From positions 66,779,159 to 66,843,158 of the forward strand of contig CM038467.1 in NCBI GenBank assembly GCA_021464415.1: a stretch of DNA of 64,000 bases, in the 5' to 3' direction. The notes beneath the pieces were generated by a model that was not told the DNA's origin, did not search any database, and saw nothing but the letters and a program-made list of their open reading frames with translations. Within the stretch, counting starts at the first letter, position 1; every line of letters starts with the position of its first letter. The DNA comes from Lonicera japonica. Its lineage: Eukaryota > Streptophyta > Magnoliopsida > Dipsacales > Caprifoliaceae. Made by a program: the position numbers and the translations under genes. Positions 7,827-41,386 of the stretch are shown here, piece by piece.

Positions 7827-9530
7827 TGTAGACACCCTAATATGTACTCCCGCAAGAACCCTAAAACCATCGAAAAAGCCCCTTTTTGAGCCTAGAACTC
7901 ACCAAAATACTAGAAACCGCTTCAGAAAGTTCGTAGCCCAGCTGTGAGAATCCGCAAATGCGACCCCTGGGTCTTGCTCTCGTCCTTGGGCGTCAGAAAT
8001 GTCGGAAATTATTCCGTCGTTCCATTTGCTTCGTCATGTTGAGGTTTTATATATTGGGTGTCCCTATGTTCTATTTCTAGATGCAAGAGGGTTCTTTCAG
8101 AGTCGCCAGTACGTTTTACGAGAAAACGGACAAAAAGGGGCGTGTAAGGGGAAAGGCTACAGATAAGCCTTTCTTTACACGTTTGTCTACGAAACCAGGA
8201 TTCTATAGGGTTCGGAAACTATGCTACAGATTTGGGAAGGTGTTAAGCACTCATTCCGCCCTTTCGGTCTCTAGTGGTCTTATATGTTTATTTTATGTTG
8301 AAAAACTTGAATGCTTTTACTGACAGTCTACTACGTTCCAGGTGAAAAACCCTAATTTCTGGGAAAAACGGGGAAAGGGATAAAAACCTTTGTGTTTCGA
8401 GATCCAATGTTTTGTTTTGGAAGATGTAAATACAAGTGACAAAAGTTGGTTTTATTTTAGGGAAAGTTTCCCATATTATTTCTCAGATAATGACGGTTTC
8501 TAACTTCTTTTTAGAAAAGTTTGGATCTTGTATCGGGACTAATTTAATATGGAATTAGAACTCTTGAGAGGGTTCTACCAGACATATCGCAGTCTATGGA
8601 AGAAACAGGATATACCGGGTTTTTAATTCCTAAGTAAGTTTTACTAGTCCGGTTTTTGAAAACAGAATTTTATCCGAATGATAATGTACTTACTCTTCTG
8701 GTTTTATAAATAGTTTTATCAGGGTCCTTTGTTTTGAAAACAGTAGACTATTTGTAACTTGGCAATAAGTTTACTCAAGTAAAATGTGGACAAAATAACA
8801 GAAGTAAAACAAGTACACAGATATCTAATGTTAAATACTAGAAGAGACTTTCTTTACCTTCCCGACAAGAATAATAATAAGAAAGAAAATATAATACGAC
8901 AGAGAGATCTTCGGCGATAATCTTTTCCTTCTTTAGATATTCCCGAGAATTCAATTCGGGATACGTCGAGTGTCGATAATAGATTCGATAATTCTTCAGA
9001 AATAAGATGATAATAGAGAATGCTTGACGAAAGACTAGAAAATCATATATAAGCCAAAAATTCTTCAATCCCCAAGTTGCTGTCTTTGAACCCTTGGGGG
9101 TGTTAGCCTATATATACTGCTTGGGGAGGATTGTCGCGCGACATTTCCCCAGAAAGGGCATGTGTCGCGCGACAATACGAACAATGTCGCGCGACAAACG
9201 GCTAAAGTGATGTCTCTGACTGACTGATGTGTCGGAGAGTGGATGGTCTGGGTCAGAGGGGTTTTGTCGTGCGATACAAGAGAGATTGTAGCGCGACATA
9301 CTGATCTGTCATGCAATAATCCCCCTTAAAAACAGGTTTGTTTGGCCAACAAACCCTTTCGGGGCAGTTTCGGGTGTTCGGGTGGGTTTTGGACTCCAGA
9401 AACAGTACTTATCGAAGGTCGTTAGGGTTCTTGCGGGGGTCACGGATCGGGGTGTCTACACCAGCAGACATGTTCCCAGAGGGATTTGTCGTGCAACAAA
9501 CCAGATTGTCACACGACAAACGTTCAGATC
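7827..9530 (+). mobile_element. 5' LTR fragment of element A, split by a solo LTR
   Basis: The pieces 7827-7942 and 9466-9530 align end to end with 40023-40230 in the A 3' LTR. The first piece stops at GCCCAGC and the second resumes at AGACATGTTCCCAGAGGG, exactly as the 3' LTR reads. Past about 9527-9530 the LTR match ends abruptly and a 68-bp tandem array begins. I read this as a deletion junction. Confidence 0.75.
7943..9460 (-). mobile_element. Solo LTR of the TAT family
   Basis: This is a complete LTR (TGTGAGAATCC...GGTGTCTACA on the plus strand, 1518 bp) with perfect 5-bp target duplications CCAGC at 7938-7942 and 9461-9465. No internal element sequence accompanies it, so it is a solo LTR left by LTR-LTR recombination. 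The orientation is minus. It contains three perfect TGTCGCGCGACA palindromes (9132, 9163, 9185) and degenerate ones at 9265, 9287 and 9307. A TATA-like box reads TATATAGG on the minus strand near 9110. The open frame at 8081-8323 falls in the LTR and is not supported as a gene. Confidence 0.85.
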
Positions 9531-9840
9531 TCATAATTACACCAAAGTACCCTCAGGTTTGGAAAATTACATAATTTACCCTTATAACCCTATATTTCTC
9601 ATAATTACACCAAAGTACCCTCAAGTTTGGAAAATTACAAAATTTACCCTTATAACCCTATATCTCTCATAATTACACCAAAGTACCCTCAGGTTTGGAA
9701 AATTACATAATTTACCCTTATAACCCTATATCTCTCATAATTACACCAAAGTACCCTCAGGTTTGGAAAATTACATAATTTACCCTTATAACCCTATATC
9801 TCTCATAATTACATCAAAGTACCCTCATAATCCTGTACTC
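9531..9840 (+). repeat. 68-bp tandem repeat array, element C copy (about 4.5 units)
   Basis: Units share the phrase AATTACACCAAAGTACCCTC, starting at 9534, 9603, 9671, 9739 and 9807, a period of 68-69 bp. The same family fills 28430-29650 and 37627-38110 in elements B and A. Its position just before exon 2 of antisense gene 1 places it in intron 1. Open frames here are products of the periodicity. Confidence 0.9.
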
Positions 9841-9856
9841 GTTCTTTTGTTTGCAG

Positions 9857-12463: not shown

Positions 12464-12867
12464 CTTTCTTTTCCTGCATTTAGTTAGTTCAGACAGATAT
12501 GTACATGTTTTAGACATAAATTTAGTTTTAAAAGCTGTTCTTTTTATTGGATTTATGAAAAATCTTTATTTGTGTCTGATGATGTACTTTTTCCTTATCT
12601 GTGATGAAAAGGTAATAATTACATGAATCGATAATTTAGGAGTCATACCATTGTGATGTGGCAGTTCTTAGGGTTCCTGCAAAAGAACAGAGTAAGCACA
12701 AAATGCATCCAGAAGTGATTATTTTGGCAAGAATGACTCTTATGTGTAAGAAAAGCAAAAATAGGGTGACACCAAAGGGGATTGTCGCGCGACAAACAGG
12801 CACAGGACCATCTTTTTTGCTATAAATACACCCATCTTCCTTCCTTCATCCCCGCACCTTTTCCAAA
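12464..12867 (+). promoter_or_regulatory. Promoter of antisense gene 2, element C
   Basis: A perfect TGTCGCGCGACA palindrome lies at 12783-12794. A TATA box (GCTATAAATACACC) starts at 12821, 26 bp further on, and the ATG follows at 12868. The palindrome and TATA arrangement recurs at 25393-25437, at 34170-34239 and in the LTR U3. The rest of the interval is AT-rich 3' flank of antisense gene 1. Confidence 0.7.
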
Positions 12868-14124
12868 ATGTCTTCTTATCGCACCAATTCTGATTTTTCT
12901 TACGTTAATGCTCGAGATGCTCTAATATCTTCTGAAAACGGCTTGAATTTTGGTGCTTTTAGCCCTTTAGCGGGTTGGTACCATCGTCCTGTAGATTTTT
13001 CCTTTTTGCTAGGTGCTTTGTATTTCTGGAGCCCTGCGGATCATCTTTTTCGTTTTGGGCTAGATGAGCTCTGCCCGACTTATGAAGAGTTCTCCTGGCT
13101 GTTGCGCTCTGATGTACGTCTTCCGATGGCTGTTCCCATAGAAGAAATCGGTCCTCGAGATATGCTGATTGCTCTGTTAGCTATTCCCCAAGCGGCCTGT
13201 GATGGTTTTATTATCGACGGGCTTCTTGACCTCCATAAAATGGTGAGGTTTTTTCATCGCTACGAAGAGAGAGCTTCTTATAGTATGGGGCGTACTGCGG
13301 CGGCCTTAATCTGTCTTGTTTCCGATATGTTACTGGTGACGGGCTCTTCCCGGGTCGATCCGACTATTCTGGGTTTGATTTACCATACTAGGAACGGGGA
13401 GTCTATAGTGCCAATTGTTCTTGCAGAGACTCTGAACGGCCTAGATGATCTTCAAAGGTGAGCTTCACCCTTTTTCACGGGAAGCCCTCGTTTGCTATAC
13501 ATGTGGCTGTTGGAGCATTTTCGATCGGTGGATTTCAACGGGGTGCGACTTGACAACCCGACACACTTTTTCCGTCGTCCTCTCTTTGGTGCTTTGACCA
13601 TGTCTTCCTCTGATTGGACGGTGTGGTTTTTGGAGAACTTTTGGACTATCCGGTGGAACATTCCTTGGTGGAAGCTGAGGGTGATGGTGCTTAGTACAGG
13701 GAATCAGAACTATGTTCGGCTCCGCGGACTCTGGTTTACCTCCTTTTATCTCCCAAGACGTTTTCTTCAGCAGTTTAACGTTCCTCAGGAGGTTCCCCTT
13801 GGTCTGAACAACTTCTCCTCTGAGTTTAAATTTGTGACCCCGCATGTTTCTTTATCGGTAGAGAGGATGTGGCGTGCTCGACTGACTCGTCAGTTCAACT
13901 ATGCCCGTTTCGGTTTTACCAGGCCCCTTCGGGCTGACATTTTCTGTTCTCGTTGAGGGTCTTTGGAAGGGGAGCTAATTGATGATCCCTTCCAAATGGA
14001 GTGGTTCCGGTTCATGGATTCTAAGCCCACAGAGGAGAACATTGTCTTTGCGTACCAGATCCTTAATGAGGCTCGAATTGACTTGGCTACTGGGGACCCT
14101 GCTTGGCCTACCCTTAGGGATTAG
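12868..14124 (+). pseudogene. Antisense gene 2 of element C: PMD/DUF-like protein with two stops
   Basis: This is a single uninterrupted reading register of 419 codons, the same length (1257 bp) as copy B at 24098-25354. It starts MSSYRTNSDFSYVNARDAL and ends AWPTLRD. Key segments are HLFRFGLDELCPTYEEFSWLL (about residues 65-85), RDMLIALLAI, and a Trp/aromatic-rich C-terminal half (WTVWFLENFW, WKLRVMVLSTG, RMWRARLTRQFNYARFG). The ELCPTYEEF phrase resembles retrotransposon-associated plant mobile domain or DUF7745-type proteins; I cannot choose between them by eye. TGA stops are at 13459 and 13954, where copy B has Gly and Trp. There is no intron. The 3' end points at the pol end of C, 220 bp away. 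Confidence 0.7.
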
Positions 14125-14343: not shown

Positions 14344-15599
14344 TTATTGGTAATACTTCTTCAGTCGATCTATGTTGACTGGTGAATGCAGTAACTGTCC
14401 GTCTAAGTCAGTGAGTATAGCGGCACCCCCTGTGTCAATCTCTTTGACGATGTATGGCCCCGTCCACTTCTGCCCGAACTTTCCCCTTGGGTCTCTGGCT
14501 GGCTCTCGAATTTCTTTTAATACGATGTCGTTCTCATTGATACCCCGAGTCTTCACTTTCTGGTTAAATGCTCGAGCAATTCTCTTCTGATACCCTCGGT
14601 GGTGGTATGCGGCTTTCAATCTTTTCTCATCTAGCAGTGCCAGCTCATTATAACGTGCCTGGACCCACTCCAGCTCATTGATTTGATTATCTAGCATTAT
14701 TCTGAGGGAGGGAACCTCTAATTCAACAGAGAGGACTGCTTCCATCCCGTATGTAAGTGAAAATGGGGTTGCCCCGGTGGAGACCCTCTCAGTGGTACGG
14801 TATTCCCATAATGCAAATGGCAATTTCTCGGGCCAGTCCCGATAGGTGTCGGTCATCTTGGTTAGGATATTCTTCAGATTCTTGTTGGCGGCCTCAACTG
14901 CCCCATTGGTTTGTGGTCTATATTACAAAGATTTGTGTCAGATGATACCGTATTCCTCCATGACTGTATTAGCCTCTCCTTCGAAGTGAGTGCCATTGTC
15001 CGAGATGATCTTATGTAAGACCCCATACCGGCAGATGATGTTCCGTCTAATGAATCGGGCAACTTTTCTGGCGTCAAGGGTTTGAAAAGACTCGGCTTCT
15101 ACCTATTTGGTGAAGTAGTCGATGGCCACTAGTATGAATTCATGGCCGTTGCTGGCTTTGGGTGAAATCTTCCCAATGATGTCAATTCCCCAGGTTGCGA
15201 AAGGCCAGGGAGCAATCATGTTGTACAACTCTTTCGGAGGAAGTTTCTGAAACATAGCGTAGATTTGGCACTTGTGACAGCGGCGTACGTGGTTAACGCA
15301 GTTGTTCTGCAGGGTAGACCAGTAATATCCTTGCCTGATGATTTTACGGGCAAGTGTATGACCGCTCATATGGGGTCCACAATCGCCCCCATGTATCTAA
15401 TCAATCATTTTGACAGATTTTTCTTCAGTGAGACATTGGAGATGGGTCCCGTCGTAGTTCCTCTTATATAGCCTTCCAGCACAAAGTATGAACCTTGATG
15501 CTAATCTCCTGAGTGTGACCCGCGTTCTCTTGTCTGTTTGCTCGGGATACCGATGATTCTTCAATAGGTTCCAGATGTCATAAACCAAGTGGTTGAGTC
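14344..15599 (-). pseudogene. Element C integrase, decayed
   Basis: The minus-strand order is zinc-binding domain (GGDCGPHMSGHTLARKIIRQG...CHKCQ, near 15270-15400), catalytic core (WGIDIIGKI near 15180, then ISDNGTHFEGEAN near 15000, then NGAVEAANKNLKN near 14890), and a C-terminal region (14344-14856) ending HSPVNIDRLKKYYQ. The DDE residues are visible. Stops or shifts lie near 15100, 14950 and 14930. The C-terminal segment is open for 170 codons. Integrase inserts the reverse-transcribed DNA; this copy is dead. The same segment recurs in element B at 23437-23880. Confidence 0.85.
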
Positions 15600-16181
15600 C
15601 CCATTCTTTTCATTCTCTACTTCCATGGCCATGCAGTGTGCTGGTCCTGATCTTCTTTGAATGGTAAGAGTTATTTCTTCCATCCCCTCCGGGGTATCAA
15701 TCATAGATGCCAGGGTTGCTAGTGCGTCATCAAAATTGTTTTGTGACCTGGGTATATAGTAGAACTCCGAATGCTCAAATTTTCTGGCGACATCCTCTAG
15801 CCGGGCAAGGTAGGGGACTAACTTTTCATCTCTGATCTTTCATTCCTTTAGAACTTGGTGGACCACTAATGCCAAATCTCCGTACACTTGTATTCTCTTT
15901 ATACCCCTTTGGAGTGCGATCTCTAACCCGATTATACAGGCTTCATACTCGGCCATGTTGTTGGTGCAGAAGAAGTCTAATCGATACGATACCAGGGAGT
16001 GAGTTTGGTCTGGAGAGACTAACAGGATGCCTATTCCGTTTCCGTTTCGGTTGGCGGCCCCGTCAAAGTACAGTTTCCAGTCTTCATTGATCTCAACATT
16101 CATGATAGTTTCATCCGAAAATTCGGCTTCTTCTAGCATGTCCCCCAATATCAGATTGTGGGCCAGGTAATCAGCTATGAT
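15600..16181 (-). pseudogene. Element C second (archaeal-type) RNase H
   Basis: The minus-strand frame 15840-16148 reads WKLYFDGAANRNGNGIGILL, then NNMAEYEACIIGLEIA and VYGDLALVVHQV. This is the archaeal-type RNase H (aRH) carried only by TAT-lineage plant Ty3/gypsy elements, between the first RNase H and integrase. D (FDGAA), E (AEYEA) and D (YGDL) are present. The downstream part (to 15600) is recognisable but carries stops. Its presence is the main basis for assigning A, B and C to the TAT lineage. Confidence 0.85.
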
Positions 16182-18021
16182 CTTGCCTTTGACTGCCTTC
16201 TAGGTCATGTAGGTGATGTCGAATTCGGAGAGTAGAAATAACCATTTTGTCATGCGGTTTGAGAGAACTGGTTTCTCGAAGAGGTATTTCAACGGATCAA
16301 TTCGTGATGCCAGGATGACCGGGGAAAGCCAGCATGTAATGCCGTAATTTCTGTGTTACCCAGACGAGGGCGGTGCATGATTTCTCCAATGGTGTGTAGT
16401 TTATCTCAAACGGGGACAGCTTCTTGCTAATGTAATAGATGGCCTATTCTTTCCGTGTATCGGTCAGATGTTGGGCTAGCATGGCTCCTGCAGCCGAATC
16501 AATGACGGTCAGGTATAGAATTAGTGGTAGTCCGGTCTGTGGTGGGGCTAACACTGGAGGTTTGGAGAGGTAGTCTTTTATTCTATCAAAAGCTTCCTGG
16601 CACTGATCGTCCCATTCTCCTGGTGAAGACTTCCTCAGGAGTTTGAAGATAAGTTCGCAAGTCTGAGTAAGCTGAGAGATGAACCTGCTAATGTACTGCA
16701 AATTACCCAAAAATCCTCGGACTTCCTTCTCGGTACGAGGCTCGGGCATGTCTCGGATAGCTCAAACTTTGGCAGGGTCTACCTCGATTCCCTTTTTACT
16801 GACGACATAGCCCAGGAGTTTTTCTTTGGTTACCCCAAACACACATTTCTGCGGATTGAGTCTTATCTGATACTGGCGGAGCCGGTTAAAAAAGGCTCGC
16901 AAGGCTAGTACATGGCCTTCCCTCTCTTTTGACTTGATTATCATGTCGTCCACATACACCTCTACTTCTTTGTGAATCATGTCGTAGAAGATAGCTGTTG
17001 CTGCCCTCTGATATGTTGCTCCGGCATTCTTCAGCCCGAATGGCATAACGGTGTAGCAGTATGTTCCCCACGGTGTGATAAATGCTATTTTCTCTTGGTG
17101 ATCCGGGTGCATCTTGATCTGGTTATACCCAGCAAAACCGTCCACGAATGATTTCAAGGCATGGTTAGCGGTATCATCTACTATTAGATCAATGTTGGGT
17201 AATGGGAAATCGTCTTTCGGGCAAGCTTTATTGAGATCTCGGTAATCTACGCACATGCGGACTTTCCCATTTGCCTTTGGAACGGGCACAATGTTGGCTA
17301 ACCATGAAGGGTACTCGATCACCCGCAAGAACCCCACACTTAATTGTTTCATCACTTCTTCTTTTACTTTTAAGGACCATTCCGGCGTAAGTTTTCTCAA
17401 CTTTTGCTTGACGGGCCTAAATTCCGGCTTGGTGTGTATCTCGTGCATGACTATCTGGCTGTTCAAACCTGGCATATCTGCATAGGACCAGGCGAAGATA
17501 TCCACGTACTCATTCAGAGTTTGTGTGAATTCTTCTCTTTCTGTCTCACTTAGACTTGCCCCAATACGGACCTCTTTTCTTTCCTCTCCTATCCCGAGGT
17601 TAATCACAAGAGTGTTTTCTTCCTTGCTCTGTATACGCTGTTCCTCATGTTCAGGGTGTTCGTTTAGTCTTTCCAACTCCATATAAGTAATTACAGAATT
17701 AAAATTAACAGGATAACGCAAAACAGAGTCTTCTTTATTGTTAATAGCGCTTATAGGTACAAGTTTAAACAGTAAATCTAAGAGTGACTCCTCCCTAGCC
17801 TTACCCTCACTCTTATCTCTCACCCTTACAATTTCACTATTTCCCCCTTTTTCTTGGTAATCCGGATCAGCGTGTATCAAGTGTACATGGTCGTCTCTTG
17901 GCTCGTCACCCCCTAGAGCCATGATGTCGAAGAGGTCTCCGATCAGTTCTTCCACTTCATCTTCCTTGTCTTCATTTTCTTCCTTCGGCCCGATCGTTAA
18001 CTTGGTAGAGAAGCTGTGCAA
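16182..18021 (-). pseudogene. Element C reverse transcriptase and RNase H
   Basis: The frame 16762-18021 (419 codons) begins with an acidic linker (EENEDKEDEVEELIG). It then holds reverse transcriptase with KVRMCVDYRDLNKACPKDDFP, FITPWGTYCYTVMPFGLKNAGATYQR and the catalytic EVYVDDMIIKS. The thumb follows (16444-16749) with EVRGFLGNLQYISRFI and the first RNase H (LTVIDSAAGAMLAQ). A stop separates the two frames, and RNase H decays after 16440. The YVDD box is intact. Confidence 0.85.
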
Positions 18022-18393
18022 AATATTTTCCTTGAGATAGAGGTCCTCTTCATAGAAGATTTCCCATCTTGGAAGGTTATCTCCGTCACTGTTTTTCCAA
18101 GGCTCCTGAAAGCCGCAAAAGAGGAAGTCCTCTCCTTCCTTGACGAAAAACCCATTCAGAGAGCTAAAACTTGGATACTGATGCCCTCAGCCCATTTTCT
18201 CTTGGTTGTCCTCTTCGGTGCGTTGGTACCCCAACCCTTCTCTTTCATGCCTCGTTACCGGTTCTAAGGCCTGAAGTAATCATGGCTGTCCCATTCCCAA
18301 ACTGGCCCCAGGTAAATATTTCATCATTCTTAGCATATTTGTGATCTTGGTGCTGAGACCGGAGATATTGTCAGGGGGTAGATACTCAATTCT

Positions 18394-19049
18394 CTAGGTG
18401 GTGAGAGCTTGTACTTGAGGCTCGTAAGAAAAGCCTCCCAGCTGTATGCTCTGACTCCCGATGCCCAATACAGGTAACTCCAGATCCGTCAAGGTCCTTT
18501 CAGGATTTCCTTGGATGGTGATTATTTCCCTTCGAACGGTATCTTGATCTTCTGGTGTAAGGAGAAGGGGAGTGCTCCTATGTCTTGTAGCCATGCTCTT
18601 CCCAACAGGAGGTTAAAACTAGAGGGAATGTCTATTATTTGAAAGTCAGCTGGAAAGTTTTCGGGACCGACCATGAGATCTAGCTTTAGGGAACCTAGAA
18701 TGCCCCTTCTGGTGTTGTCATAGGCTCTAACGGTCACAGCTGACGGGGAAAGTTCTGAGTCTAAGATACCTAGACATCTGGCGGTCTTCAAAGGGCAGAC
18801 ATTTATGGTTGACCCGTTGTCGATGAGGACCTGCGGCAGGATTTTCCCTCGGGTTCGGACAGTAATATTGAGGGCCAGACTGTGTTTCTTCCCTAATGGA
18901 GATAAGTCTTCATCTGAGAATGACAGACTTCTTTGGACTGTAAGGGACCCGATCATGTTTGGTAGTTGTTCTAGTGTGAAATCTGGTGATATGACGGCCT
19001 CGTCTAGGAGTTTGATGAAGGCGGTCCTATGAGGTTTGGAGGTGCCCAA
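18394..19049 (-). pseudogene. Element C protease region
   Basis: The minus-strand frame 18522-19049 contains a retropepsin-like active site, VLIDNGSTINVCPL, in a GKILPQ...SPSAVTVRAYDNTRRGILG context, then FNLLLGRAWLQDIGALP. The D-N-G-S form is usual in TAT proteases. The frame overlaps the end of gag, which implies a frameshift in this copy, and a second frame (18394-18594) continues the same domain. The gap 18022-18393 is a degraded linker toward reverse transcriptase. Confidence 0.8.
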
Positions 19050-21924: not shown

Positions 21925-21944
21925 GTCCCCAGCAGAGTCGCCAC
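21925..21944 (-). other. Primer binding site of element C (TAT type)
   Basis: The minus strand reads TGGCGACTCTGCTGGGGAC one base after the LTR end. TGGCGACTC-type primer sites are known from TAT/Ogre elements. This proves that 21945-23436 is the 5' LTR of a minus-strand element whose gag-pol lies to its left. Confidence 0.8.
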
Positions 21945-23436
21945 TGTGAGAATCCGCAAATGCGACCCCCAGGTCTCGTCCCCGTTGTTTGGGCGTCTGA
22001 AAGGTCGGAACAGATTTCGTCGTTCCTTTTACTGGAGTATCTTGGTTGATGGTTCACATCAGGTGTTCCTATGTTCTATTTCTAGATGCAAAAGGGTTCA
22101 TTCAGAGTCGCCAGTACGTTTTACGAGAAAATGGACAAAATGGTTGTGCAAGAGGAATGGCTACAGACAAGCCTTTCTTTACACATTTGTCTGCAAAATC
22201 AGGATTCTATAAGGTTTGGAAACCATATTACGGTTTGGGAAGGTGTTAAGCACCCATTCCGCCCTTTCGGTCTCTAGTGGTCTTATATGTTTATTTTATG
22301 TTGAAAAACTTGGATGCTTTTACTGACAGTCTACTACTTTCCAAGTGAAAACCCTAATTTTGGGAAAACGGAGAAAGGGATGAAAACCTATGTGTTCTGA
22401 GATCCAATGTTTAGTTTTAGGAAAGATAAATGTAAGCGACAAGAGTCGTTTTACTTTAGATGGAGTTTTACCGTATTATTTCTCAGATAACGACGATTTT
22501 TCTCGGGTTTTGACTTGTTTAAAAAAAAAGTGTTGGATCTTGTATCAGAACTAATTCAATATGGAATTGGAACTCTTGAGGGGAGTTCTACCAGACATAT
22601 CACAATCTATGAAACAGATAAGACATACCGGGTTTTTAATTCCTAAGTAAGTTTTACCGGTCCGGGTTTTGAAAATAGAATTTTATCCGGATGATAATAT
22701 ACTTACTCTTCTGGTTTTGAAAATAGTTTTATCAGGGTCTCCTTGTTTTGAAAACGGTAGACTATTTGTAACTTGACAATAAGTTTATTCAAATAAAACG
22801 TGGACAAAATAACAAAAATAAAACAAGTACACAGATATTTAATGTCAAATACAAGAAGAGACTTTCTTTACCTTCCCGACGAGAATAATAATAAGAGAGA
22901 AAATATAATACGGCGGAGAGATTTTCGGCGATAATAATCTTTTTCTTCTTCCGATATTTCTGAGAATTCGATTGCAAAGACGGGACACGTCGAGTACCGA
23001 GAAAATATTCGATAATTTTTCAGAAACAAGACGAGAATCGAGAATGCTTGATGAAAGACTAGAGAGTCAGATCTAAGCCAATAATTCTCCAATCCCAAGT
23101 TGCTACCCTTGAACCCTTGGGGGTGTTGGCCTATTTATAGTGCTCGGGGAAGATTGTCGCGCGACACTTCCCCAAAAGGGGCATATGTCGCGCGACAATG
23201 TGTCCAATGTCAGAGAGTGGATGGTCGGGGTCAGAGGGGTTTGTCGTGCGACAAAGAAGTGATTGTCGCGCGACATACTGATATGTCGTGCGACAATCCC
23301 ACTTAAAAATAGGTTTGTTGGCCAACAAACCCTTTCGGGGTAGCTTCGGGTGCTCGGGTGGGTCCTAGACTCTAAAAACAATAGTTCTCGAAGGTCGTTA
23401 GGGTTCTTACGGGGGTCACGGATCGGGGTGTCTACA
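21945..23436 (-). mobile_element. 5' LTR of element C
   Basis: It spans TGTGAGAATCC to GGTGTCTACA on the plus strand, 1492 bp. In the element's own direction it has U3 with TGTCGCGCGACA at 23155, 23186 and 23264 and TGTCGTGCGACA at 23242 and 23284. A TATA box (CTATAAATAG, 23131-23140) follows 14 bp after the nearest palindrome. The primer site adjoins the other end. The base 23437 continues element B pol, with GAGGG (23437-23441) as the surviving copy of the target duplication. Confidence 0.85.
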
Positions 23437-23880
23437 GAGGGTCTCCACAGGGGCAACCCCGTTTTCCCTTACATACGGGATGGAAGCAGTCCTCCCTGTT
23501 GAATTAGAAGTCCCCACCCTCAAAGTAATGTTAGAGAATCAAGTTAATGAACTGGAATGGGTCCAGGCACGTTATAACGAGCTAGCCTTGCTAGATGAGA
23601 AGAGATTGAGAGCCGCATACCACCACCAAGGGTATCAGAAGAGAATTGCTCGAGCATTTAACCAGAAAGTAAAGACTCGGGGTATCAATGAGAACGACAT
23701 CGTGTTGAAAGAAATTTGAGAGCCAGCCAGAGACCCAAGGGGAAAGTTCGGGCAGAAGTGGACAGGGCCATACATCGTCAAAGAGATTGATACAGGGGGT
23801 GCCGCCATACTCACAGACTTGGACAGGCAATTGCTACATTCACCAGTCAACATGGATCGTTTGAAGAAATATTACCAGTA
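23437..23880 (+). pseudogene. Element B pol, integrase C-terminal fragment
   Basis: The plus-strand coding matches the last 150 or so codons of the element C pol: GMEAVLPVELEVPTLKVML, NELEWVQARYNELALLDEK, AYHHQGYQKRIARAF and, after a TGA near 23717, the end near 23880. It starts abruptly where the C 5' LTR ends, so element C inserted into B pol here. The remainder of B pol is missing because of the large deletion. Confidence 0.85.
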
Positions 23881-24097: not shown

Positions 24098-25354
24098 CTA
24101 ATCCCTAGGGGTCGGCCAAGCAGGGTCCTCAGTGGCCAAGTCAACTCGAGCCTCATCCAGGATCTGGTACGCAAAGACGATACTCTCCTCTGTGGGCTCA
24201 GAATTCATAAACCAGAACCACTCCATTTGGAAGGGATCATCAATCAGCTCCCCTTCGAGAGACCCCCAACGAGAACTGATGATGTCAGCCTGGAGGGGCC
24301 TGGAAATACCAAAACGGGCATAGTTGAACTGACGAGTCAGTCGAGCACGCCACATTCTCTCCACTGATAAAGAAACATGCTGGGTCACGAACTTAGACTC
24401 GGAAGAGATATTGTTCAAGCCGAGGGGAATATCCTGAGAAACATTGAACTGCCGAAGAAGACGTCCTGGGAGATAAAAAGAAGTAAACCATAGCCCACGG
24501 AGCCGAACGTAATTCTGCCCTCCGGTACTAAGCACCATCGCCCTCAGCTTCCACCAAGGAATGTTCCACCGAATGGCTCAAAAATTCTCCAAAAACCACA
24601 CCGTCCAATCAGAGGAAGACATGGTCAAAGCACCAAAGAGGGGACGATAGAAGAAGTGCGTCGGGTTGTCTAGCCGAACCCCGTTAAAACCCACCGATCG
24701 GAAACGCTCCAACAGCCACATGTATAGTAAACGAGGGCTTCCCTTGAAGAAAGGTGAGGCTCCCCTTTGGAGATCGTCTAGGCCGTTCAGAGTCTCTGCA
24801 AGAACGATAGGCACTATGGACTCCCCATTCCTAGCATGATAAATCAAACTCAGAATAGTCGGATCGACACGGGAAGAGCCCGTCACCAGTAGCATATCAG
24901 AAACAAGACAGATCAAGGCCGCCGCAGCACACCCCACGCTATAAGAAGTTTTGTCCTCATAACGATGGAAAAACCTCACCATCTTGTGGAGATCAAGAAA
25001 CTCGTCGATAATAAAATCATCACAAGCCACTTGGGAAATGGCTAACAGAGCAATCAACATATCTCGAGGACCGATCTCTTCTATAGGAATAGCCATTGGG
25101 AGACGAACGTCAGAACGCAACAGTCAGGAAAACTCCTTATAAGTAGGGCAGAGCTCATCTAGTCCGAAACGAAAAAGATGATCCGCAGGGCTCTAGAAAT
25201 ACAAAGCGCCTAACAAAAAGGAAAAATCTACAGGACGATGGCACCAGCCTGCCAAAGGACTGAATGCACCAAAGTTCAAGCTATTCTCAGAAGATATCAG
25301 AGCATCTCGGGCTTCAACATAAGAAAAGTCAGAATTTGTACGATAAGAAGACAT
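24098..25354 (-). pseudogene. Antisense gene 2 of element B: PMD/DUF-like protein with three stops
   Basis: It spans 419 codons from an ATG at 25354 (MSSYRTNSDF) to a TAG at 24098 (AWPTPRD). The length equals the C copy exactly, with no frameshift. Internal stops lie near 25190, 25122 and 24577, all where the C copy has Trp, so all are TGG to TAG or TGA. Absence of indels over 1257 bp in both copies suggests selection on the frame before the elements died. The domain assignment is as for the C copy. Confidence 0.7.
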
Positions 25355-25388
25355 TTTTGGGAAGGTGTGGGGATGAAGGAAGGCAGAG

Positions 25389-25469
25389 GGTGTATTTATA
25401 GCAAAAAAGGGGTCCTGTACCTATTTGTCGCACGACAAACCCATATCCAGGAGGGATTGTCACGCGACA
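25389..25469 (-). promoter_or_regulatory. Promoter of antisense gene 2, element B
   Basis: On the minus strand TGTCGCGTGACA-type (25458-25469) and TGTCGTGCGACA-type (25426-25437) palindrome variants precede a TATA box, TATAAATACACC (25393-25400), then the ATG at 25354. Each palindrome differs from the perfect form by one CG-to-TG or CG-to-CA change. Confidence 0.65.
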
Positions 25470-25797: not shown

Positions 25798-28700
25798 CTA
25801 ATCTATCCGGGCGCGCTTCGACACGCTCCCACTGTCACCCCGAACCCTCCTCCGGAATAGGATCAACCGCTGGGACATCCGGATGAGAAGGAACTGCTGC
25901 CTGAGAGGGCCCCGTCGACTGAACCGGAGCTGTAAGGCAGATCACAGAGGACCGTGAAAACCTAGAGGTCCGACTACTACTCCTCTGAGACTCTGACCGA
26001 GTGCGGGAGGAGGACAGAGGGTCGTCCACCCGAAGAGATACATCGATTGCCCTCTAGTAATCACGCATGTATGCCGTGGGGTCTCGACCAATGGACTGGA
26101 GGAGGTTCCAGTTGTAGAGGTATTGGGCGTGGAGAGCTCTCAGATCTGCTGCACGAACACTCACCCATTGTAAAAGACATAAGAGAGGGAATTAGCATAC
26201 TTTTAAGATAAACAGATATAAAAGAACGGCAGAATACATAAAAGAAGGGACATACCTCGTCACCCACGCGGCCACCTAGATAATCAAAAGTATCCTTGGG
26301 TAAAGGATACTTGGGCATGGTATAACGGCGAAGACCGGCACCAACGTAGGTAATATCCCGAGGAAGGAGTGGGATGTCAACTAGAGGAACAGATGGACCC
26401 GCCGGTACCGCCGCAGAAGTGGACCCACCCTCCTCACGAATCGGGAACAGGGGAGGCCAAGAAGAAGAACCCCCGAGACTTGGAGATCAGGCCGGAGGGC
26501 CCATAGCAGCCGACGGAAGCAGAGTAAGCGTAGCATAAGTGCGGATGCCCGGAGGATCCACAACGGTCGTCGCTCTCAGAGGCGGGACCTCGCTAGAAGG
26601 AGAAGTCGCAGCAACAGGAGGGGTCCGCTCAAACTGCTCATAGTCAACCCCGAGGTCCGCAGGCTCCCAAGATCGCTCAGAAAAAGCTGCTCCCTCTCTC
26701 TCAGCAGCCTCCGCAGCATCGAAAACTACCTCAGGTGATACTGATGGACCGGTGGGAAACTCAAAACCCTCAGCACGCTGCTCCTCCATAGGCATCGACT
26801 GAGGCGGCTGCTCTGGAACTGCCGCTGCCCCACCTCCCTCGCCTCCCTAGGCCTATCATCTTCGCCCTCGGCAGCAGCAGGAATACCCCTCTCTCCCTTG
26901 GGGTCATGTCATCAGAGTCAAGAATATTGTCCCTCTGATCGGGGACAGGCAGCAACTGACCTGGAACCGTCTTGGACAAATGAATCTGTCCTCGTATATA
27001 GTTGGGATCGCCTCCCAACGCCCGGTACCTCTCGTAGAAGACCCGTCCTCGAGTCCCCCTCGACTCCCTCATCAAATAAAGGGCAGCAAAGGCAGTGTAA
27101 TCTCCCTCCTCGGTGAACGTCTGAAAGCCGAGCCATCTACCAAGGCCTGTACCGTCACCGGACCAATCTCGCCCGTCTGCCTCATCAGAATCGGTGGAAA
27201 CAAAGGAACTTGGAGCCACTGGGCCGGTGTGTGCTGGCGAATAACTCTCTCGCCCAAGTGGAAATGGAGGCTGTACTCATCCCTGATAAGCCGCCTGGTC
27301 CTCGAGGCGGTTAGAGTGCGGCCATATCCGAAGTGGAGACCCAGATCACCCCAGGGGGCCCACTCAATCTGAACAAAAACAAAATTTTATTTTAGTTATT
27401 TGTATTCTATTTACTATTTATCTATTTGAAAAGAAAGAACACTAAGATATTTACCTGCTCCTCCAGCAGGTCATGGACGGCAGCAGCTCTGGTCTCCCGA
27501 GTCCGGTATACATAGGGAGCCATGTAGTTCCTCGCGATGAATCAACAAAGAAGGGGAAACTGATCCTCGTTCTTAACGAGGAGATCCACCTGGGCACGAC
27601 CCAGACGGGTATAAGCCACGAACCAACTCTGAAGAGAAAACATAAAGAATATCAGCAACAATCAATAGATAATATATAAAGGACTGAAAACAAAGATAAA
27701 GGAACAAAAGTATGTACCTCCCACAGCAATGAGAAGCCCTTGAGGTTCAGGGCTAAATGACAGGAAACCTGGTCCATAGTATCGTAAAGAACAGCAAGGA
27801 TAAAACCCCCCAGTCATAGTCGAACATGATACTGAAGTCTCGAAGATAGGGCAGCCACCAGAGATGGGCTGTGTCCCCCCCACAGGCCTCGAATAGATCA
27901 TGGAGTGTCAATAAGAGGAGGACGCGGGCATACTGACGCGCCTCCTGACGGGTCATCGGCGCTCTAGAAGCAACTAGCCGGGCTCTCTCTGTCACCAGAC
28001 GCGTGACCAAAACTGCCCGAGGGATCGTATCGCCCGAACTCCGTCGCTTAAGAAACCACCCTAGTGCGCCCACGATACCCTCTGCCGTCAAACGCAAAGG
28101 GACATCGATCTGGATAGGGACTCCCTAAAGGAATCCCGGTCAGAGAAAATAGGTCCAGGGGGTCATCGTCATCTCCCCCAGCTCCAGTGGAAGGTATGAG
28201 TGGTGTCCCACCAGTGAGAAGCCAGAGCCGACACCAGCACAGCCGCCCTAGATACCCGCTCTGGAAGGGCATCGAAAAGATGACCAAATGGAGTCGCAAG
28301 GAATAACTCCTGGACAGGCGCCGGTGACTGTCGCCACTCCAGAGAAATAGTGTTGGGAGAACCCCAACCTTGGCCAACCCACTGCAGACAACAAAGAGTG
28401 ATGTATATATAAATATATGGTTATTGGTGTAATTATGAGAATTATGGGGTTATAGGGATAAATTATATAATTTTCCAAACCTGAGGGTACTTTGGTGTAA
28501 TTATGAGAGTTATGGGGTTATAGGGGTAAAGTATGTAATTTTCCAAACCTAAGGGTACTTTGGTGTAATTATGAGAGTTATGCGGTTATAGGGGTAAATT
28601 ATGTAATTTTCCAAACCTGAGGGTACTTTGGTGTAATTATGAGAGTTATAGGGTTATAGGGGTAAATTATGTAATTTTCCAAACCTGCGGGTACTTTGGT

Positions 28701-30038
28701 GTAATTATGAGAGTTATAGGGTTATAAGGGTAAATTATGTAATTTTCTAAACCTGAGGGTACTTTGGTGTAATTATGAAAGTTATAGGGCTATAAGGGAA
28801 AATTAGGTAATTTTCTAAAACTGAGGGTACTTTGGTGCAATTATCAGAGTTATAGGGCTATAAGGGAAAATTAGGTAATTTTCCAAAACCTAAGGGTACT
28901 TTGGTGCAATTATGAGAGTTATAGGGCTATAAGGGTAAATTATGTAATTTTCTAAAACCTGAGGGTACTTTGGTGCAATTATGAGAGTTATAGGGCTATA
29001 AGGGTAAATTATGTAATTTTCCAAAACCTGAGGGTACTTTGGTGTAATTATGAGAGTTATAGGGCTATAAGGGTAAATTATGTAATTTTCCAAAACATGA
29101 GGGTACTTTGGTGCAATTATGAAAGTTATAGGGCTATAAGGGTAAATTATGTAATTTTTTAAAACATGAGGGTACTTTGGTGTAATTATGAGAGTTATAG
29201 GGCTATAAGGGTAAATTATGTAATTTTTCAAAACCTGAGGGTACTTTGGTGTAATTATGAGAGTTATAGGGCTATAAGGATAAATTATGTAATTTTCCAA
29301 AACCTGAGGGTACTTTGGTGTAATTATGAGAGTTATAGGGCTATAAGGATAAATTATGTAATTTTTCAAAACCTCAGGGTACTTTGGTGTAATTATGAGA
29401 GTTATAGGGTTATAGGGGTAAATTATGTAATTTTCCAAAACCTGAGGGTACTTTGGTGTAATTATGAGAGTTATAGGGTTATAAGGGTAAATTATGTAAT
29501 TTTCCAAAACCTGAGGGTACTTTGGTGTAATTATGAGAGTTATAGGGTTATAAGGGTAAATTATGTATTTTTTCAAAACCTGATGTTACTTTGGTGTAAT
29601 TATGAGAGTTATAGAGTTATAGGGGTAAATTATGTAATTTTCCAAAAGGGTATCACAAGTAAAAGTATGTGTTCACTAAGTCGGACGTTATTTCTAAGCA
29701 GACATGCATACTAACACAAGAATTGTTTAAAACACATGCAGGAAACGACAGAAATAAATCGAACAAATAAAACACACAAAAGGAAGGCATACCAGAGACT
29801 GTCGACGGATCTCGTGAGAAACAGGCTCCATCAAGAGCCACGGAACATCCGGGACTGGAGCAGCCCGGGTGACGTCTCGATAGACCACCGCCAGACCGCG
29901 GTCCACCCCGTCCTCGCCATACCAGTCGAGGTCCGCCCAGTCGTCATGACGAGGGCTGCATCGGAGAACGCCCTGAGCGTCGGTAACAGTGACCTCCTCC
30001 TGGTCACCCTCTAGTCTATCGGGCTGAGCAGGGTCCAT
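25798..30038 (-). pseudogene. Antisense gene 1 of element B: five-exon PMD protein, decayed
   Basis: This is the most complete copy. The exons, in transcript order, are 30038-29793 (MDPAQPDRLEGDQEEVTVTD..., 82 codons), 28381-27718 (WVGQGWGSPN and PMD core), 27628-27455 (AYTRLGRAQVDLLVENEDQF), 27368-26256 (acidic and proline-rich) and 26167-25798 (serine/arginine-rich). Introns have GT donors and AG acceptors. The exon 5 acceptor reads AA at 26168. Intron 1 is 1.4 kb and consists almost wholly of a tandem array. A frameshift lies in exon 2 near 28180, exon 4 has stops, and an extra G near 25840 shifts the end. PMD proteins (the MAIN/MAIL family in Arabidopsis) act in the nucleus on gene expression; for the element-borne form the role is unknown. 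Confidence 0.75.
28430..29650 (-). repeat. 68-69-bp tandem array in intron 1 of antisense gene 1, element B (about 18 units)
   Basis: The plus strand repeats GGGTACTTTGGTGTAATTATG, then AGTTATAGGG and GTAAATTATGTAATTTTCC. Many units are 69 bp, so reading frames persist on both strands (23-residue periods), but they arise from the period length alone. The array lies wholly between the exon 1 donor (29792) and the exon 2 acceptor (28382). Tandem arrays in the 3' region are known from Retand-type TAT elements. Confidence 0.9.
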
Positions 30039-30241
30039 CTGTGTATATGGAGAGTAGTGAGAAAGTCGGAAAAATCAGAAAAGCGGCAAGGCTTCCGCGC
30101 TTGAGAAAAGAGAGAAAGAGAAAAGAGAGAATGAGGTAGAATGAGCTCAGCAAGGGGCTTATATAATGGATCAGTTTGTCGCGCGACAAACAGGCTCATT
30201 GTCGCTTGACAAACACCTCTCCACCGAGATGTCGCGCGACA
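30039..30241 (-). promoter_or_regulatory. Promoter of antisense gene 1, element B
   Basis: On the minus strand, perfect TGTCGCGCGACA palindromes at 30230-30241 and 30177-30188 and a variant at 30200-30211 precede a TATA box (ATTATATAAG, 30159-30168). A CT-rich 5' UTR and the ATG at 30038 follow. The layout matches the LTR and antisense gene 2 promoters. Element A has lost this block. Confidence 0.7.
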
Positions 30242-31084: not shown

Positions 31085-31985
31085 CCTCCTCGAGGCAAAT
31101 CACGAGCACAAGCCCTCGTCAGAGGCAAAAGTACTCACAAAAGCCCTCCCAGAGGCAATTTTTTTTCTTTTTTATAGATCGAAAGCCCTCCCAGAGAGGC
31201 ACAGTGGAGCAATGTTAGTCCTCCCACATGAGGCAAGAAGATCAAAGCCCTCTCAGAGAGGCACAACGTAGCAATGGTAGTCCTCCCACCTGAGGCCAGA
31301 AGAACAAAGCCCTCCCAGAAAGGCACAGTGGAGCAATGGTAGTCCTCCCACCTGAGGCGAAAAGATCAAAGCCCTCCCAGAGAGGCAAAATGGAACAATG
31401 GTAGTCCTCCCACCTGAGGCGAGAAGAACAAAGCCCTCCCAGAGAGGCACCGTGTAGCAATGGTAGTCCTCCCACATGAGGCAAGAAGAACAAAGCCCTC
31501 CCAAAGAGGCACCGTGTAGCAATGGTAGTCCTCCCACATGAGGCAAGAAGAAAAAAGCCCTCCCAGAGAAGCACAGTGTAACAATGGTAGTCCTCCCACA
31601 TGAGGCAAGAAGAACAAAGCCCTCCCAGAGAGGCACAGTGTAGCAATGGTAGTCCTCCCACCTGAGGCGAGAAGATCAAAAGCCCTCCCAGAGAGGCACA
31701 GTGTAGCAATGGTAGTCCTCCCACCTGAGGCGAGAAGAACAAAGCCCTCCCAGAGAGGCACAATGTAGCAATGGTAGTCCTCCCACCTGAGGCCAGAAGA
31801 ACAAAGCCCTCCCAGAGAGGCACGGTGTAGCAGTGGTAGTCCTCCCATCTGAGGCGAGTGGAACAAATGGTAGTCCTCCCATTTGAGGCAAGTGGAGCAA
31901 ATGAAAGTCCTCGAAAGAGGCAAGGAGGTAACACAAGCCCTCTCCGGAGGCAAAACCAAACACAAGCCCTCTCCAGAGGCACTCA
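31085..31985 (+). repeat. 62-bp tandem array (CCTCCCAGAGAGGC family), element B (about 11 units)
   Basis: Units read AAAGCCCTCCCAGAGAGGCA, then CAGTGTAGCAATGGTAGTCC, then TCCCACCTGAGGCGAGAAGA. Each unit contains two imperfect small inverted repeats (CCTCCCAGAGAGG and CCTCCCACCTGAGG). Edge units are diverged. Long minus-strand frames here (up to 246 codons) differ only by register within the repeat and are rejected as genes. It lies just upstream of the 3' LTR. Confidence 0.9.
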
Positions 31986-32083
31986 CAAACACTTTTTGCA
32001 TACGCACACTTCCTTAGAGTTCTTGCGGGAGCCATGGATCACGGTCTCTTCCAGTCGCCTCAATTCCTTGCAAGCAAGAAACT

Positions 32084-32098
32084 TGAGTCAAGAGGGTC
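32084..32098 (+). other. Polypurine tract of element B
   Basis: GAGTCAAGAGGGTC adjoins the LTR start. The same phrase (GAGTTGAGAGGGTC) precedes the A 3' LTR at 40023. It is the likely primer for plus-strand synthesis. Confidence 0.6.
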
Positions 32099-33653
32099 TG
32101 TAGACACCCCGATCTGTGAACCCCGCAAGAACCCTAACGACCTCCGAGAAGTACTGTTTTTGGAGTCCAGGACCCACCCGAGCACCCGAAACTGACCTGA
32201 AAGGGTTTGTTGGCCAACAAACCTGTTTTTAAGTGGGATTGTCGCACGACATATCAGTGTGTCACGCGACAATCACTGTTATGTCGCGCGACAATCACCC
32301 CTTATGTCGCACGACAAACCCCTCTGACCCAGACCATCCACTCTCTGACACATCAGTCTGTCAGAAACATCACTTCAGCCGTTTGTCGCGTGACATTGGT
32401 CAACATGTCGCGCGACACTTGCCTTTTCTGGGGAAATGTCGCCCAACATTCTTCCCCGAGCAGTATAAATAGGCCAACATCCCCAAGGGTTCAAGGACAG
32501 CAACTTGGAATTGAAGAATTATTAGCTTATATCTGATTTTCTAGTCTTTCGTCAAGTATCTTCTGTTATAATCTTATTTATGAGGAATTATCGAATCTAT
32601 TCCCGACACTCAACGTGTCCCGTTTCTGGAATCAAATTCTCGGAAATATCTGAAGAAGGAAAAGATCATTATCGCCGGAGATCTCTCTGCCGCATTATAT
32701 TTTCTTTCTTATTATTATTCTCGTCGGGAAAGTAAAGAAAGTCTCTTCTAGTATTTAAATTATATATCTGTATACTTGTTTTACTCTTGTTGTTCTGTCC
32801 ACGTTTTATTTGAATAAACTTATTGCCAAGTTACAAAGTAGTCTACTGTTTTCAAAACAAAAGACCCCGATAAAACCATTTGCAAAATCAGAAGAATAAG
32901 TACATTATCGTCCCGACAAAATTCTGTTTTCAAAACTCGGACCGGTAAAACCTACTTAGGAATTAAAAACTTGGTGTATCCTATATCTTTCATAGACTGT
33001 GATATGTCTGGTAGAACTCCCCTCAGGAGTTCTAATTCCATATTAAAATTAGTCCCGATACAAAGATCCAAGCTTTTCCAAAATAAGTCAAAACCCGAGA
33101 AAAACCGTCGTTATCTGAAAAATAAAACGGAAAATTCTCTCTAAAGAAAAACAACTTTTGTCACTTATATTTACGTCTTTCAAAATAAAACATTGGATCT
33201 CGGAACACAAAGGTTTCCATCCCTTTCCCCGTTTTCCCCTGAAATTAGGGTTTTTACTTGGAAAGTAGTAGACTGTCAGTAAAAGCATCTAAGTTTTTCA
33301 ACATAAAATAAACATATAAGACCACTAGAGACCGAAAGGGAGGAATGGGTGCTTAACACCTTCCCAAACCGTAATATAGTTTCCGAACCTTATAGAATCC
33401 TGGTTTCGCAGACAAATGTGTAAAGAAAGGCTTATCTGTAGCCTTTCCTCTTACACAACTATTTTGTCCGTTTTCTTGTAAAACGTACTGGCGACTCTAA
33501 ATGAACTCTCTTGCATCTAGAAATAGAATATAAGGACACCCGATATGGAAAATTCAACTCGACGAAGCAAATGGAACGACGGAATCCTCTTCGACGTTTC
33601 AGACGCCTAAGAACAGGATCGAGACCCGGGGGTCGCATTTGCGGATTCTCACA
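32099..33653 (+). mobile_element. 3' LTR of element B
   Basis: It spans TGTAGACACC to GGATTCTCACA, 1555 bp. U3 contains palindromes at 32240, 32260, 32282 (perfect), 32305, 32384, 32406 (perfect) and 32437 (diverged), then a TATA box (CAGTATAAATAGG, 32462-32474). The next bases, GCTGT (33654-33658), begin pol sequence of element A and are probably the right target-duplication copy. Confidence 0.85.
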
Positions 33654-33785
33654 GCTGTACAAAAAAAATTACGATAAGACTCATATCCAATGTCTCACAG
33701 AAGAGGAATTCGTTAAAATGATGGATCAAATACATGATGGAGACTGCGGACCCCACATGAGCGGTCATACACAGGTCGTCTGAGA
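33654..33785 (+). pseudogene. Element A pol fragment (integrase zinc-binding region)
   Basis: It encodes LYKKNYDKTHIQCLTEEEFV and then GDCGPHMSGHT, matching element C at 15270-15480 on the minus strand. About 130 bp remain. It starts where the element B LTR ends, so B inserted into A pol at this codon. It ends where an internal deletion joins it to antisense gene 2. Confidence 0.85.
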
Positions 33786-34103
33786 AAAAGATTATAAGGT
33801 AATAAGCATATCCCGATGACTAACATCCTCAATCAGAGCAGCCATGGGGAACCGTGTATCAAAATGTAAGAGCCATGACAACTCTTTGAAAGTTAGACAG
33901 AGCTCGTCTAGACCAAAGTGAAAAAGATGTTTATCCGAATTCCAGAAGGCCAAGGCACCTAGAAGAAAGAAGAAATCTACGGGACGGAAGCCCCACGCAA
34001 CCAATGGGCTGAAAACACCAAAGTTTAAACCATTTTTCGAAGATACTAAGGCATCCCGGGCTTTGATATATAGAAAGTCAGTTTTTGAATGGAAAGAGGA
34101 TAT
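33786..34103 (-). pseudogene. Antisense gene 2 of element A, N-terminal fragment without start codon
   Basis: The sequence matches the first 105 or so residues of the B and C copies (FLYIKARDALVSSKNGLNFG, HLFHFGLDELCLTFKELSWL). Where they have ATG, this copy reads ATA at 34101-34103. An upstream in-frame ATG at 34244 exists but falls in promoter sequence. The C-terminal three quarters are deleted. This copy is the most diverged of the three. Confidence 0.7.
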
Positions 34104-34330
34104 CTTCGTATGAAAAAGGGAAAAGAGAAAAGAATGGTGTAAGAATGAAGGAAGGAACATAGAATATTTATATGGAGAGGGTGTCCTGTGCCTGTTTGTA
34201 ACACGACAAACCAATCTCAGAAGAGATTGTCGCGCGACAAACATTTATTTATGAGGGTTCCTCGCGTGACAAACTCTTTAAACTCACCCCTTTGACTATT
34301 TTGCCAAAAGAAGTACTTTCGTATGTGTTT
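34104..34330 (-). promoter_or_regulatory. Promoter region of antisense gene 2, element A
   Basis: It carries a perfect TGTCGCGCGACA at 34228-34239, a degraded one at 34197-34208 and a GCGTGACAAA remnant near 34265. The TATA-like TATAAATATTC lies near 34165-34175 on the minus strand. Same order as in elements B and C. Confidence 0.6.
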
Positions 34331-41372: not shown

Positions 41373-41386
41373 TTGGTATCAGAGGG
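41373..41386 (+). other. Primer binding site of Copia
   Basis: TTGGTATCAGAGGG follows the LTR directly and fits the tRNA-iMet primer. Confidence 0.85.

Follow-up and report, generated by a model that had tools for sequence, protein, structure and literature searches.

The 64-kb window and its Tat-type elements

The stretch analyzed here (the window) comprises 64,000 nucleotides of the Lonicera japonica genome (G000 C5:66779159-66843158) and contains parts of three Tat-type Gypsy elements, designated A, B, and C, plus one solo long terminal repeat (LTR). The subject of the analysis is a 12-bp perfect palindrome, TGTCGCGCGACA, which includes three CpG dinucleotides and recurs in the U3 part of the LTRs and in the promoters of two antisense genes, AS1 and AS2 (Table 1). 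Element A lies on the minus strand and is broken within a tandem array near position 9529; neither a 3' LTR nor an AS2 promoter of this element is found in the window. Element B, on the plus strand, starts in the integrase at 23437, and its antisense genes are read from the minus strand. Decay is further advanced in element C (from ~33660), which lacks the AS2 promoter that B has and whose LTR, split by a Copia element, retains only decayed copies of the palindrome (1 to 3 mismatches). The left LTR of a preliminary description of this DNA is a solo LTR: it is flanked by a target-site duplication, CCAGC, and interrupts a C-type LTR fragment.

All twelve positions previously listed for perfect copies of the palindrome proved correct on re-scanning, as did the presence of one-mismatch copies near them. 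The window contains 22 sites with at most one mismatch, compared with 0.03 expected and a maximum of 1 in 100 shuffles; the number rises to 31 with up to two mismatches and to 42 with up to three. Each of the 31 sites with up to two mismatches belongs to an LTR U3 or an antisense-gene promoter, regions that were drawn after the sites had been seen and constitute ~3.6% of the window. Sites with exactly three mismatches (11 in total, 3 within these regions and 8 elsewhere) are at about the chance level, block shuffling giving 1.55 sites with exactly two mismatches and 11.5 with three. The clustering in three places per element that had been reported holds with respect to the kinds of places, also genome-wide, but within the window all three occur together only in element B. 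The gap between the nearest palindrome and the TATA box is 15 bp in the LTRs, 24-26 bp in the AS1 promoters, and 11 bp in the AS2 promoter, a range of 11-26 bp in place of the 10-26 bp first given. A related 20-bp perfect palindrome, GGTTTGTTGGCCAACAAACC, overlooked in the preliminary description, is a symmetric variant of the site and lies ~32 bp from the next site in two of the LTRs. The AS1 promoter of element A lacks ~32 bp between two sites relative to B, and the single copy there seems to be a hybrid, left when the DNA separating two palindromes was deleted.

Table 1. Palindrome arrays, LTRs, and genes of the Tat-type elements in the window
Feature	Position	Strand	Details
Solo LTR	7943..9460		Flanked by CCAGC
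U3 array, solo LTR	9132..9298	-	Sites 9132, 9163, 9185, 9265, 9287; TATA on minus strand from 9116
Two decayed sites	9487..9518	+	2 mismatches each; in C-type LTR fragment interrupted by the solo LTR
AS1 promoter site, element A	12783..12794	+	Single copy; TATA 12821; ATG 12868
AS1 gene, element A	12868..13956	+	Antisense to gag-pol; weakly PMD/DUF7745-like via relatives; in-frame stop 13459-13461
gag-pol, element A	14344..20664	-	gag, protease region, reverse transcriptase, RNase H, second RNase H (aRH), integrase
5' LTR, element A	~21943..23436	-	
U3 array, 5' LTR of element A	23155..23331	-	Sites 23155, 23186, 23242, 23264, 23284; 20-bp variant 23312-23331; TATA on minus strand from 23139
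AS1 gene, element B	24098..25354	-	Start codon 25354; interrupted by stops
AS1 promoter sites, element B	25426..25469	-	Sites 25426 and 25458 with one mismatch each, spaced by 32 bp; TATA from 25400
AS2 gene, element B, 5' part	27753..30038	-	Exon 1 end near 29790, later PMD-like exon (exon limits are the authors' reading)
AS2 promoter sites, element B	30177..30241	-	Sites 30177, 30200, 30230; TATA from 30165; ATG 30038
LTR, element B	32099..~33653	+	
U3 array, LTR of element B	32204..32448	+	20-bp variant 32204-32223; sites 32240, 32260, 32282, 32305, 32384, 32406, 32437; TATA 32464
AS1 promoter sites, element C	34197..34271	-	34197 and 34260 with 3 mismatches; 34228 perfect
Decayed U3 array, LTR of element C	40162..40380	+	Sites 40162, 40194, 40214, 40316, 40338, 40369; TATA 40396

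We call the elements Ogre-type on account of the placement of the second RNase H (aRH) and the antisense open reading frames (ORFs) of the plant mobile domain (PMD) type. The domain order along the minus strand of element A, namely reverse transcriptase, RNase H, aRH, and the integrase zinc domain, fits Ogre or Retand. It is documented by Pfam matches to RT_RNaseH_2 (4.6e-11, 16444-16761) and RVT_3 (3e-10, 15840-16199), the latter being read by us as the probable aRH, and by an integrase zinc domain (2e-05, 25.1 bits) just below the cut-off of 25.5; gag and reverse transcriptase of element A are recognized by Pfam as well. The second RNase H besides the one linked to the reverse transcriptase, which defines Tat, is present. 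Ogre and Retand are distinguished by an additional RNase H placed between the first one and integrase, and 57% of Ogre elements have an extra ORF of the PMD type (PMC6317226), while a TRP28 antisense ORF is found in 97% of recent Retand clusters (PMC11963269). The PMD-type extra ORF is weakly recognizable in the Lonicera elements, and TRP28 (PF04195) had no match at E <= 1 among 10 antisense-region ORF pieces and seven relatives of AS1 (P0001-P0007). The earlier label TAT/Retand can thus be kept at the level of Tat, whereas the PMD-type antisense genes indicate the Ogre subclade (PMC6317226) and not Retand. A sequence resembling a primer-binding site, TGGCGACTCTGCTGGGGAC, follows the 5' LTR.

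Distribution, spacing, and decay of the palindrome

The source genome (886,079,548 bases) contains 29,561 perfect copies of TGTCGCGCGACA, compared with a single copy of the same sequence read backwards. The surroundings of these copies were analyzed in thirteen 10-kb stretches from the first listed palindrome places (contig C1, 0.55-4.54 Mb). The 98 sites with up to two mismatches in this sample are divided between LTR U3 regions (78), AS1 promoters (8), and AS2 promoters (12), with none elsewhere, and all 53 perfect sites belong to the same superfamily of elements, although host sites constituting less than ~5% of the total would be missed by such a sample. Random scatter over the element, the pattern named beforehand as contrary to a shared operator, is thus observed neither in the window (31/31 sites in the three promoter types) nor in the C1 sample (98/98).

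Since the C1 sample was picked by the palindrome itself, further loci were picked by other features, each set being a part of a best-hit list: 30 of 150 and 20 of 102 for AS1, 20 of 150 for AS2, and 12 of 40 for the LTR, with the second AS1 set and the AS2 set hand-picked from the match lists. Among the best protein hits to AS1 (L070-L099, including the copy from the window, 19 of the 30 having identical coding starts over 591 coding bases), the palindrome was found in 30/30 promoters. A more distant AS1 query yielded 19/20, giving 49/50 in combination, and each of the 49 has at least one perfect copy. The palindrome is likewise present in 20/20 AS2 promoters selected by similarity of exon 1 (a perfect copy in 18/20), and an array of palindromes was observed in 12/12 U3 regions selected by R/U5 similarity. 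First-look candidates in the genome number 3,270 for AS1, many of the 150 scored having open frames of 431-449 codons, and 2866 for AS2 exon 1.

Genome-wide counts of perfect pairs, which start at a spacing of 20 bp, demonstrate sharp classes: 8,257 pairs are 20-23 bp apart, 50 are 24-29 bp apart, 4,803 are 30-32 bp apart, and 915 are 33-41 bp apart. Fifty of the latter were listed, 37 at 40-41 bp and 13 at 33-34 bp, and in 36 of the 37 pairs at 40-41 bp another exact or nearly exact copy lies in between. These classes correspond to roughly two, three, and four turns of the helix. The 12 LTRs have spacings of 20-22 and 31 bp, in addition to one of 53 bp and those of 79-81 bp across a conserved U3 spacer; the spacing is 32 bp in AS1 promoters and 23 and 30-31 bp, with one of 51 bp, in AS2 promoters. 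Distances to the TATA box vary little within a type. The center of the proximal LTR site is 21.5 bp away in 10/12 LTRs and 22.5 bp away in one, no TATA box being found in the remaining one. From site start to TATA start, the distance is 38 bp in the first AS1 set (n = 30) and 23 bp in 18/20 AS2 loci, the other two having no recognizable TATA box. The same spacing classes are seen in three promoter types without significant similarity otherwise: when the palindromes were masked in the three promoters of element B, 68, 95, and 9 of 100 shuffles reached the observed score, the last value referring to AS1 versus AS2.

The youngest-looking AS1 subfamily (L071 and others of L070-L099) mostly has three perfect sites at exact 32-bp spacing, and many other AS1 promoters have two, which suggests growth or loss by 32-bp units.

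Copying without function would explain the arrays as remnants of tandem duplication spread by transposition, an old internal duplication having provided all three promoters with sites. The location of the AS1 sites within a 32-bp repeated unit, the variation of the U3 copy number by whole units, and the slight masked similarity of the AS1 and AS2 promoters (the 9/100 pair) are in line with it. Nonetheless, the promoters of B are not significantly alike outside the palindromes, the sites persist in LTRs that are only about 62-73% alike, spacings of 24-29 bp are almost absent, and the arrays end near the TATA box, all of which makes this explanation very improbable. Least probable of the alternatives considered is a role at the RNA level, in which a hairpin with a self-complementary GCGC loop would serve as a dimerization or packaging signal: the core is indeed self-complementary, and the copies would fall in the 3' part of the genomic RNA (the 3' U3 and the region between pol and LTR), but neither a nearly fixed distance to three kinds of TATA boxes nor spacing near two and three turns of DNA is predicted by it.

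The site is common to sense and antisense promoters, clustered, and close to TATA boxes, as had been proposed, both in the window and genome-wide. Very probably, it constitutes a shared, phased array of putative binding sites for one factor in the LTR and both antisense promoters, and the perfect dyad symmetry together with the phased spacing suits a dimeric DNA-binding protein.

The dyad is also retained where the sequence changes. The outermost U3 site has the core TTGGCCAA in many U3 regions and TTGCGCAA in others, both symmetric; in the LTRs of A and B it is extended to the perfect 20-bp palindrome, whereas in several LTRs an extra A breaks the dyad. Among 129 sites, 65/84 mismatches are CpG transitions, and the one-mismatch copies can therefore be attributed mostly to methylation-type decay; methylation of the three CpGs would produce such an excess. 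The same numbers, which suggest germ-line methylation at some stage, could be claimed for a silencing target, that is, a triple-CpG palindrome recognized by a host repressor or methylation pathway and tolerated rather than selected. In the youngest-looking subfamily, 17/19 AS1 promoters have three perfect copies and the other two have one, which would be unexpected if the sites did the element nothing but harm, and we consider that hypothesis improbable.

An apparent single long relative (L109, L110, and L111; contig C1, ~4.187-4.207 Mb) has ATTAC beside both LTRs; the L109/L111 insertion is fairly recent, judging from the 98.9% identity of its LTRs.

The antisense genes and a candidate factor

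Two comparisons were made of the ratio of nonsynonymous to synonymous substitution rates (dN/dS). Between elements A and B, a pair chosen without regard to coding quality, it is 0.11-0.16 for AS1 and 0.08-0.115 for integrase, which indicates selection on the AS1 protein and a degree of constraint close to that of integrase. Values within L070-L099 (0 to 0.13, mostly 0.03-0.06) are biased by the choice of best hits, and the comparison of A with B was therefore used instead. The annotated protein P0001 of L. macranthoides, which constitutes the sole evidence from a second species, is 91% identical to AS1, and its first 41 residues read as translated promoter DNA (GLSRDT..., VCRATN), the peptides LSRDT and VCRATN fitting two palindromes 32 bp apart in the same promoter places. 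A U3 translation used as a protein query returned three L. macranthoides gene models containing LTR starts, in which palindrome peptides were not seen. Neither relatives of AS1 nor matches to GTTTGTCGCGCGACAAAC were found in viral_contigs. For TTGTCGCGCGACAA, 65 stretches were obtained outside this genome, 63 of them with a single site, which were taken for chance occurrences without inspection.

A weak affinity to PMD is seen in both antisense genes. The AS2 segment of element A (10199-10579) matches PF10536 (PMD) at 3.1e-05, as the only one of 10 antisense-region ORFs below 0.001, and the matching AS2 segment of B gave no Pfam PMD match. Three of the seven relatives of AS1 match PMD (P0001, 1.6e-05; P0005, 6.6e-05; P0002, 9.8e-05), and the other four are above 0.02 or have no match; P0002 fits DUF7745 better (1.7e-06, above the DUF7745 cut-off). 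An NCBIfam scan of three proteins returned no match.

We propose that a sequence-specific protein, probably a dimer, binds the palindrome close to the promoters, and that the spacing of about two and three turns would let several dimers line up along the same face of the helix beside the TATA boxes. Three promoters would be addressed in this way, that of the LTR, which gives the sense gag-pol RNA, and one for each antisense gene. The factor would most likely be one of the element's own antisense PMD-like proteins, AS1 in the first place, so that a single private site may allow the element to control transcription in both directions, with the protein acting as an activator, a repressor, or an anti-silencing factor. 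The element is preferred as the source of the factor because the site is confined to the superfamily in the samples and AS1 is constrained, and also because of the precedents of the nuclear gene23 protein of Grande and the predicted DNA binding of Retand TRP28 (PMC11963269, PMC7264820), and of VANC (PMC5735166). An element-encoded factor is slightly favored on these grounds, with a confidence that stays a little short of even. The more specific proposal that the antisense PMD-like proteins of Ogre-type retrotransposons are sequence-specific regulators, which recognize the TGTCGCGCGACA arrays and thereby close a regulatory loop comprising the LTR promoter and those of both antisense genes, is put forward more tentatively.

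The main competitor is a host transcription factor, the site of which would have been recruited by the LTR and the antisense promoters as an enhancer for joint switch-on without any regulator of the element's own. Repeats in LTR U3 regions that are read by host factors are common, the boxes of Tnt1 being an example, and this commonness is in favor of a host protein. The evidence in cis (copy number, confinement to promoters, spacing, and TATA distance) is identical under both explanations. On the other hand, none of the 53 perfect sites in the C1 sample falls outside the superfamily, subject to the ~5% limit given above, and the site is unlike the consensus sequences of CAMTA, E2F, and spaced ARF sites, which were rejected by inspection. 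A host factor is accordingly regarded as a plausible explanation, though a somewhat less probable one than a protein of the element.

A number of observations weigh against an element-encoded factor or against the regularity of its presumed target. A host factor would explain the cis data about as well, and Pfam and NCBIfam scans of pieces of AS1 and AS2 revealed no DNA-binding domain of a known kind, a result that also fits a host protein. All PMD matches are weak, below the Pfam cut-off of 34.9 bits. Two AlphaFold2 models of AS1 are poor (mean predicted local distance difference test scores of 49.5 and 48.9), Foldseek with the first of them returned nothing at E <= 0.001, and a sequence search of PDB gave no relative of AS1. 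Off-phase spacings of 34 bp (three times), 42 bp, and 56 bp (once each) were observed in the window and the C1 sample, in addition to the 53-bp spacing and the frequent 79-81-bp spacings of the LTR set, and the 32-bp spacing in AS1 promoters also reflects duplication of the 32-bp unit. One AS1 copy (L114) has lost both sites in a single deletion while keeping the TATA box and the ATG. The copies are related by descent, and their counts are not independent events. A comparison of CpG decay after insertion, intended to detect protection of the sites, gave no significant difference between palindromic and other CpGs (11/90 versus 25/109, p = 0.06; 13/113 versus 29/172, p = 0.24, with a seventh LTR pair added), the LTR pairs being inferred from strand and a distance of ~17-19 kb, with the target-site duplication checked for L109/L111 only. 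The 'DOWN' motif of host genes dependent on PMD proteins, CATGCAGTTT in the MORC1 promoter, is unrelated to the palindrome, and whether the host PMD complex touches chromatin is called unknown in the same paper (PMC9899485).

The window has several further features. A 69-bp tandem array of 17.8 copies (28424-29647) lies between AS2 exon 1 and the PMD-like exon of element B and is therefore probably intronic; A (9529-9827) and C (37623-38051) have other numbers of copies. Mutually related tandem arrays with units of 62 bp (B, 31182-31867) and 31/61 bp (C, 39549-39852) are located between the AS2 region and the LTR. The Copia element inside the LTR of element C (41046-48406) has 327-bp LTRs that are 97.6% alike, a tandem array with a 57-bp unit (41702-42628), and a gag-pol open in two adjoining frames. 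A Pfam scan gave no match at E <= 0.01 for an open frame of 324 amino acids (50126-51100).

Comparison with known systems

What the antisense genes do in Tat, Ogre, and Retand elements, a plentiful component of many plant genomes, is treated as unsettled in the cited work (PMC11963269, PMC7264820), as is the recognition target of PMD proteins (PMC9899485). A strongly conserved 12-bp site with tens of thousands of copies, which in the samples occurs only in the sense promoter and the antisense-gene promoters, merges both questions into one. If the proposed circuit is true, a defined target in DNA would be available for the PMD family, and an origin would be suggested for what host MAIN/MAIL1 do in chromatin; if the site is bound by a host factor, it would name the protein exploited by this large and in part recent family expansion.

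Neither the palindrome nor a site that LTR and antisense promoters have in common was described in the literature searched, which mostly excluded subscription papers, in agreement with the preliminary description, the author of which knew of no such shared operator. Among the papers listed in one search, the full 12-mer does occur in one, on chicken PRMT4. Arrays of motifs private to a transposable element and read by its own protein (VANDAL), as well as an antisense gene with its own promoter (Grande), are already known, and the new observation is one palindromic site common to the LTR promoter and the antisense promoters.

The human T-cell leukemia virus HTLV-1 has 21-bp repeats in its U3 that act with Tax, and an antisense gene, HBZ, that feeds back on sense transcription. 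It works in a similar way with respect to repeated U3 sites and antisense feedback, but it has no sequence or family relation to the Lonicera elements, in which the site is found also in separate internal antisense promoters. HBZ is mentioned in PMC11963269.

Ogre elements share with those of Lonicera the succession of RNase H, second RNase H, and integrase, a PMD-like extra ORF, and a long region between pol and the 3' LTR, whereas the palindrome and the promoter architecture are not met in the excerpted description (PMC6317226). In Grande, gene23 has its own promoter and encodes a nuclear protein for which a regulatory role was proposed, and Retand TRP28 is predicted to bind DNA (PMC11963269, PMC7264820). 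In contrast to the PMD-like products of Lonicera, recent Retand clusters nearly all encode TRP28 (PMC11963269), and no cis target site is proposed in the excerpts on either element (PMC11963269, PMC7264820).

The host proteins MAIN/MAIL1 with PP7L belong to the same protein superfamily, being relatives of the PMDs encoded by Gypsy elements, and MAIN/MAIL1 are needed for the expression of genes with the common promoter motif 'DOWN' (PMC7156037, PMC9899485, PMC5418596). A relation of the palindrome to this motif was rejected by inspection.

The VANDAL elements (MULE) of Arabidopsis with their anti-silencing VANC proteins resemble the present case in that a short motif is dense in the non-coding parts of one family of transposable elements, is rare in others, and forms arrays that evolve by unit duplication; in VANDALs, the motif is bound by a protein encoded by the element (PMC5735166, PMC10398659). 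VANDALs differ in being DNA transposons, the motif of which, YAGTATTAY, is non-palindromic and located in introns, intergenic parts, and terminal regions (PMC5735166, PMC10398659), whereas the Lonicera site is a perfect palindrome placed beside the TATA boxes of an LTR retrotransposon, and its binding protein is putative.

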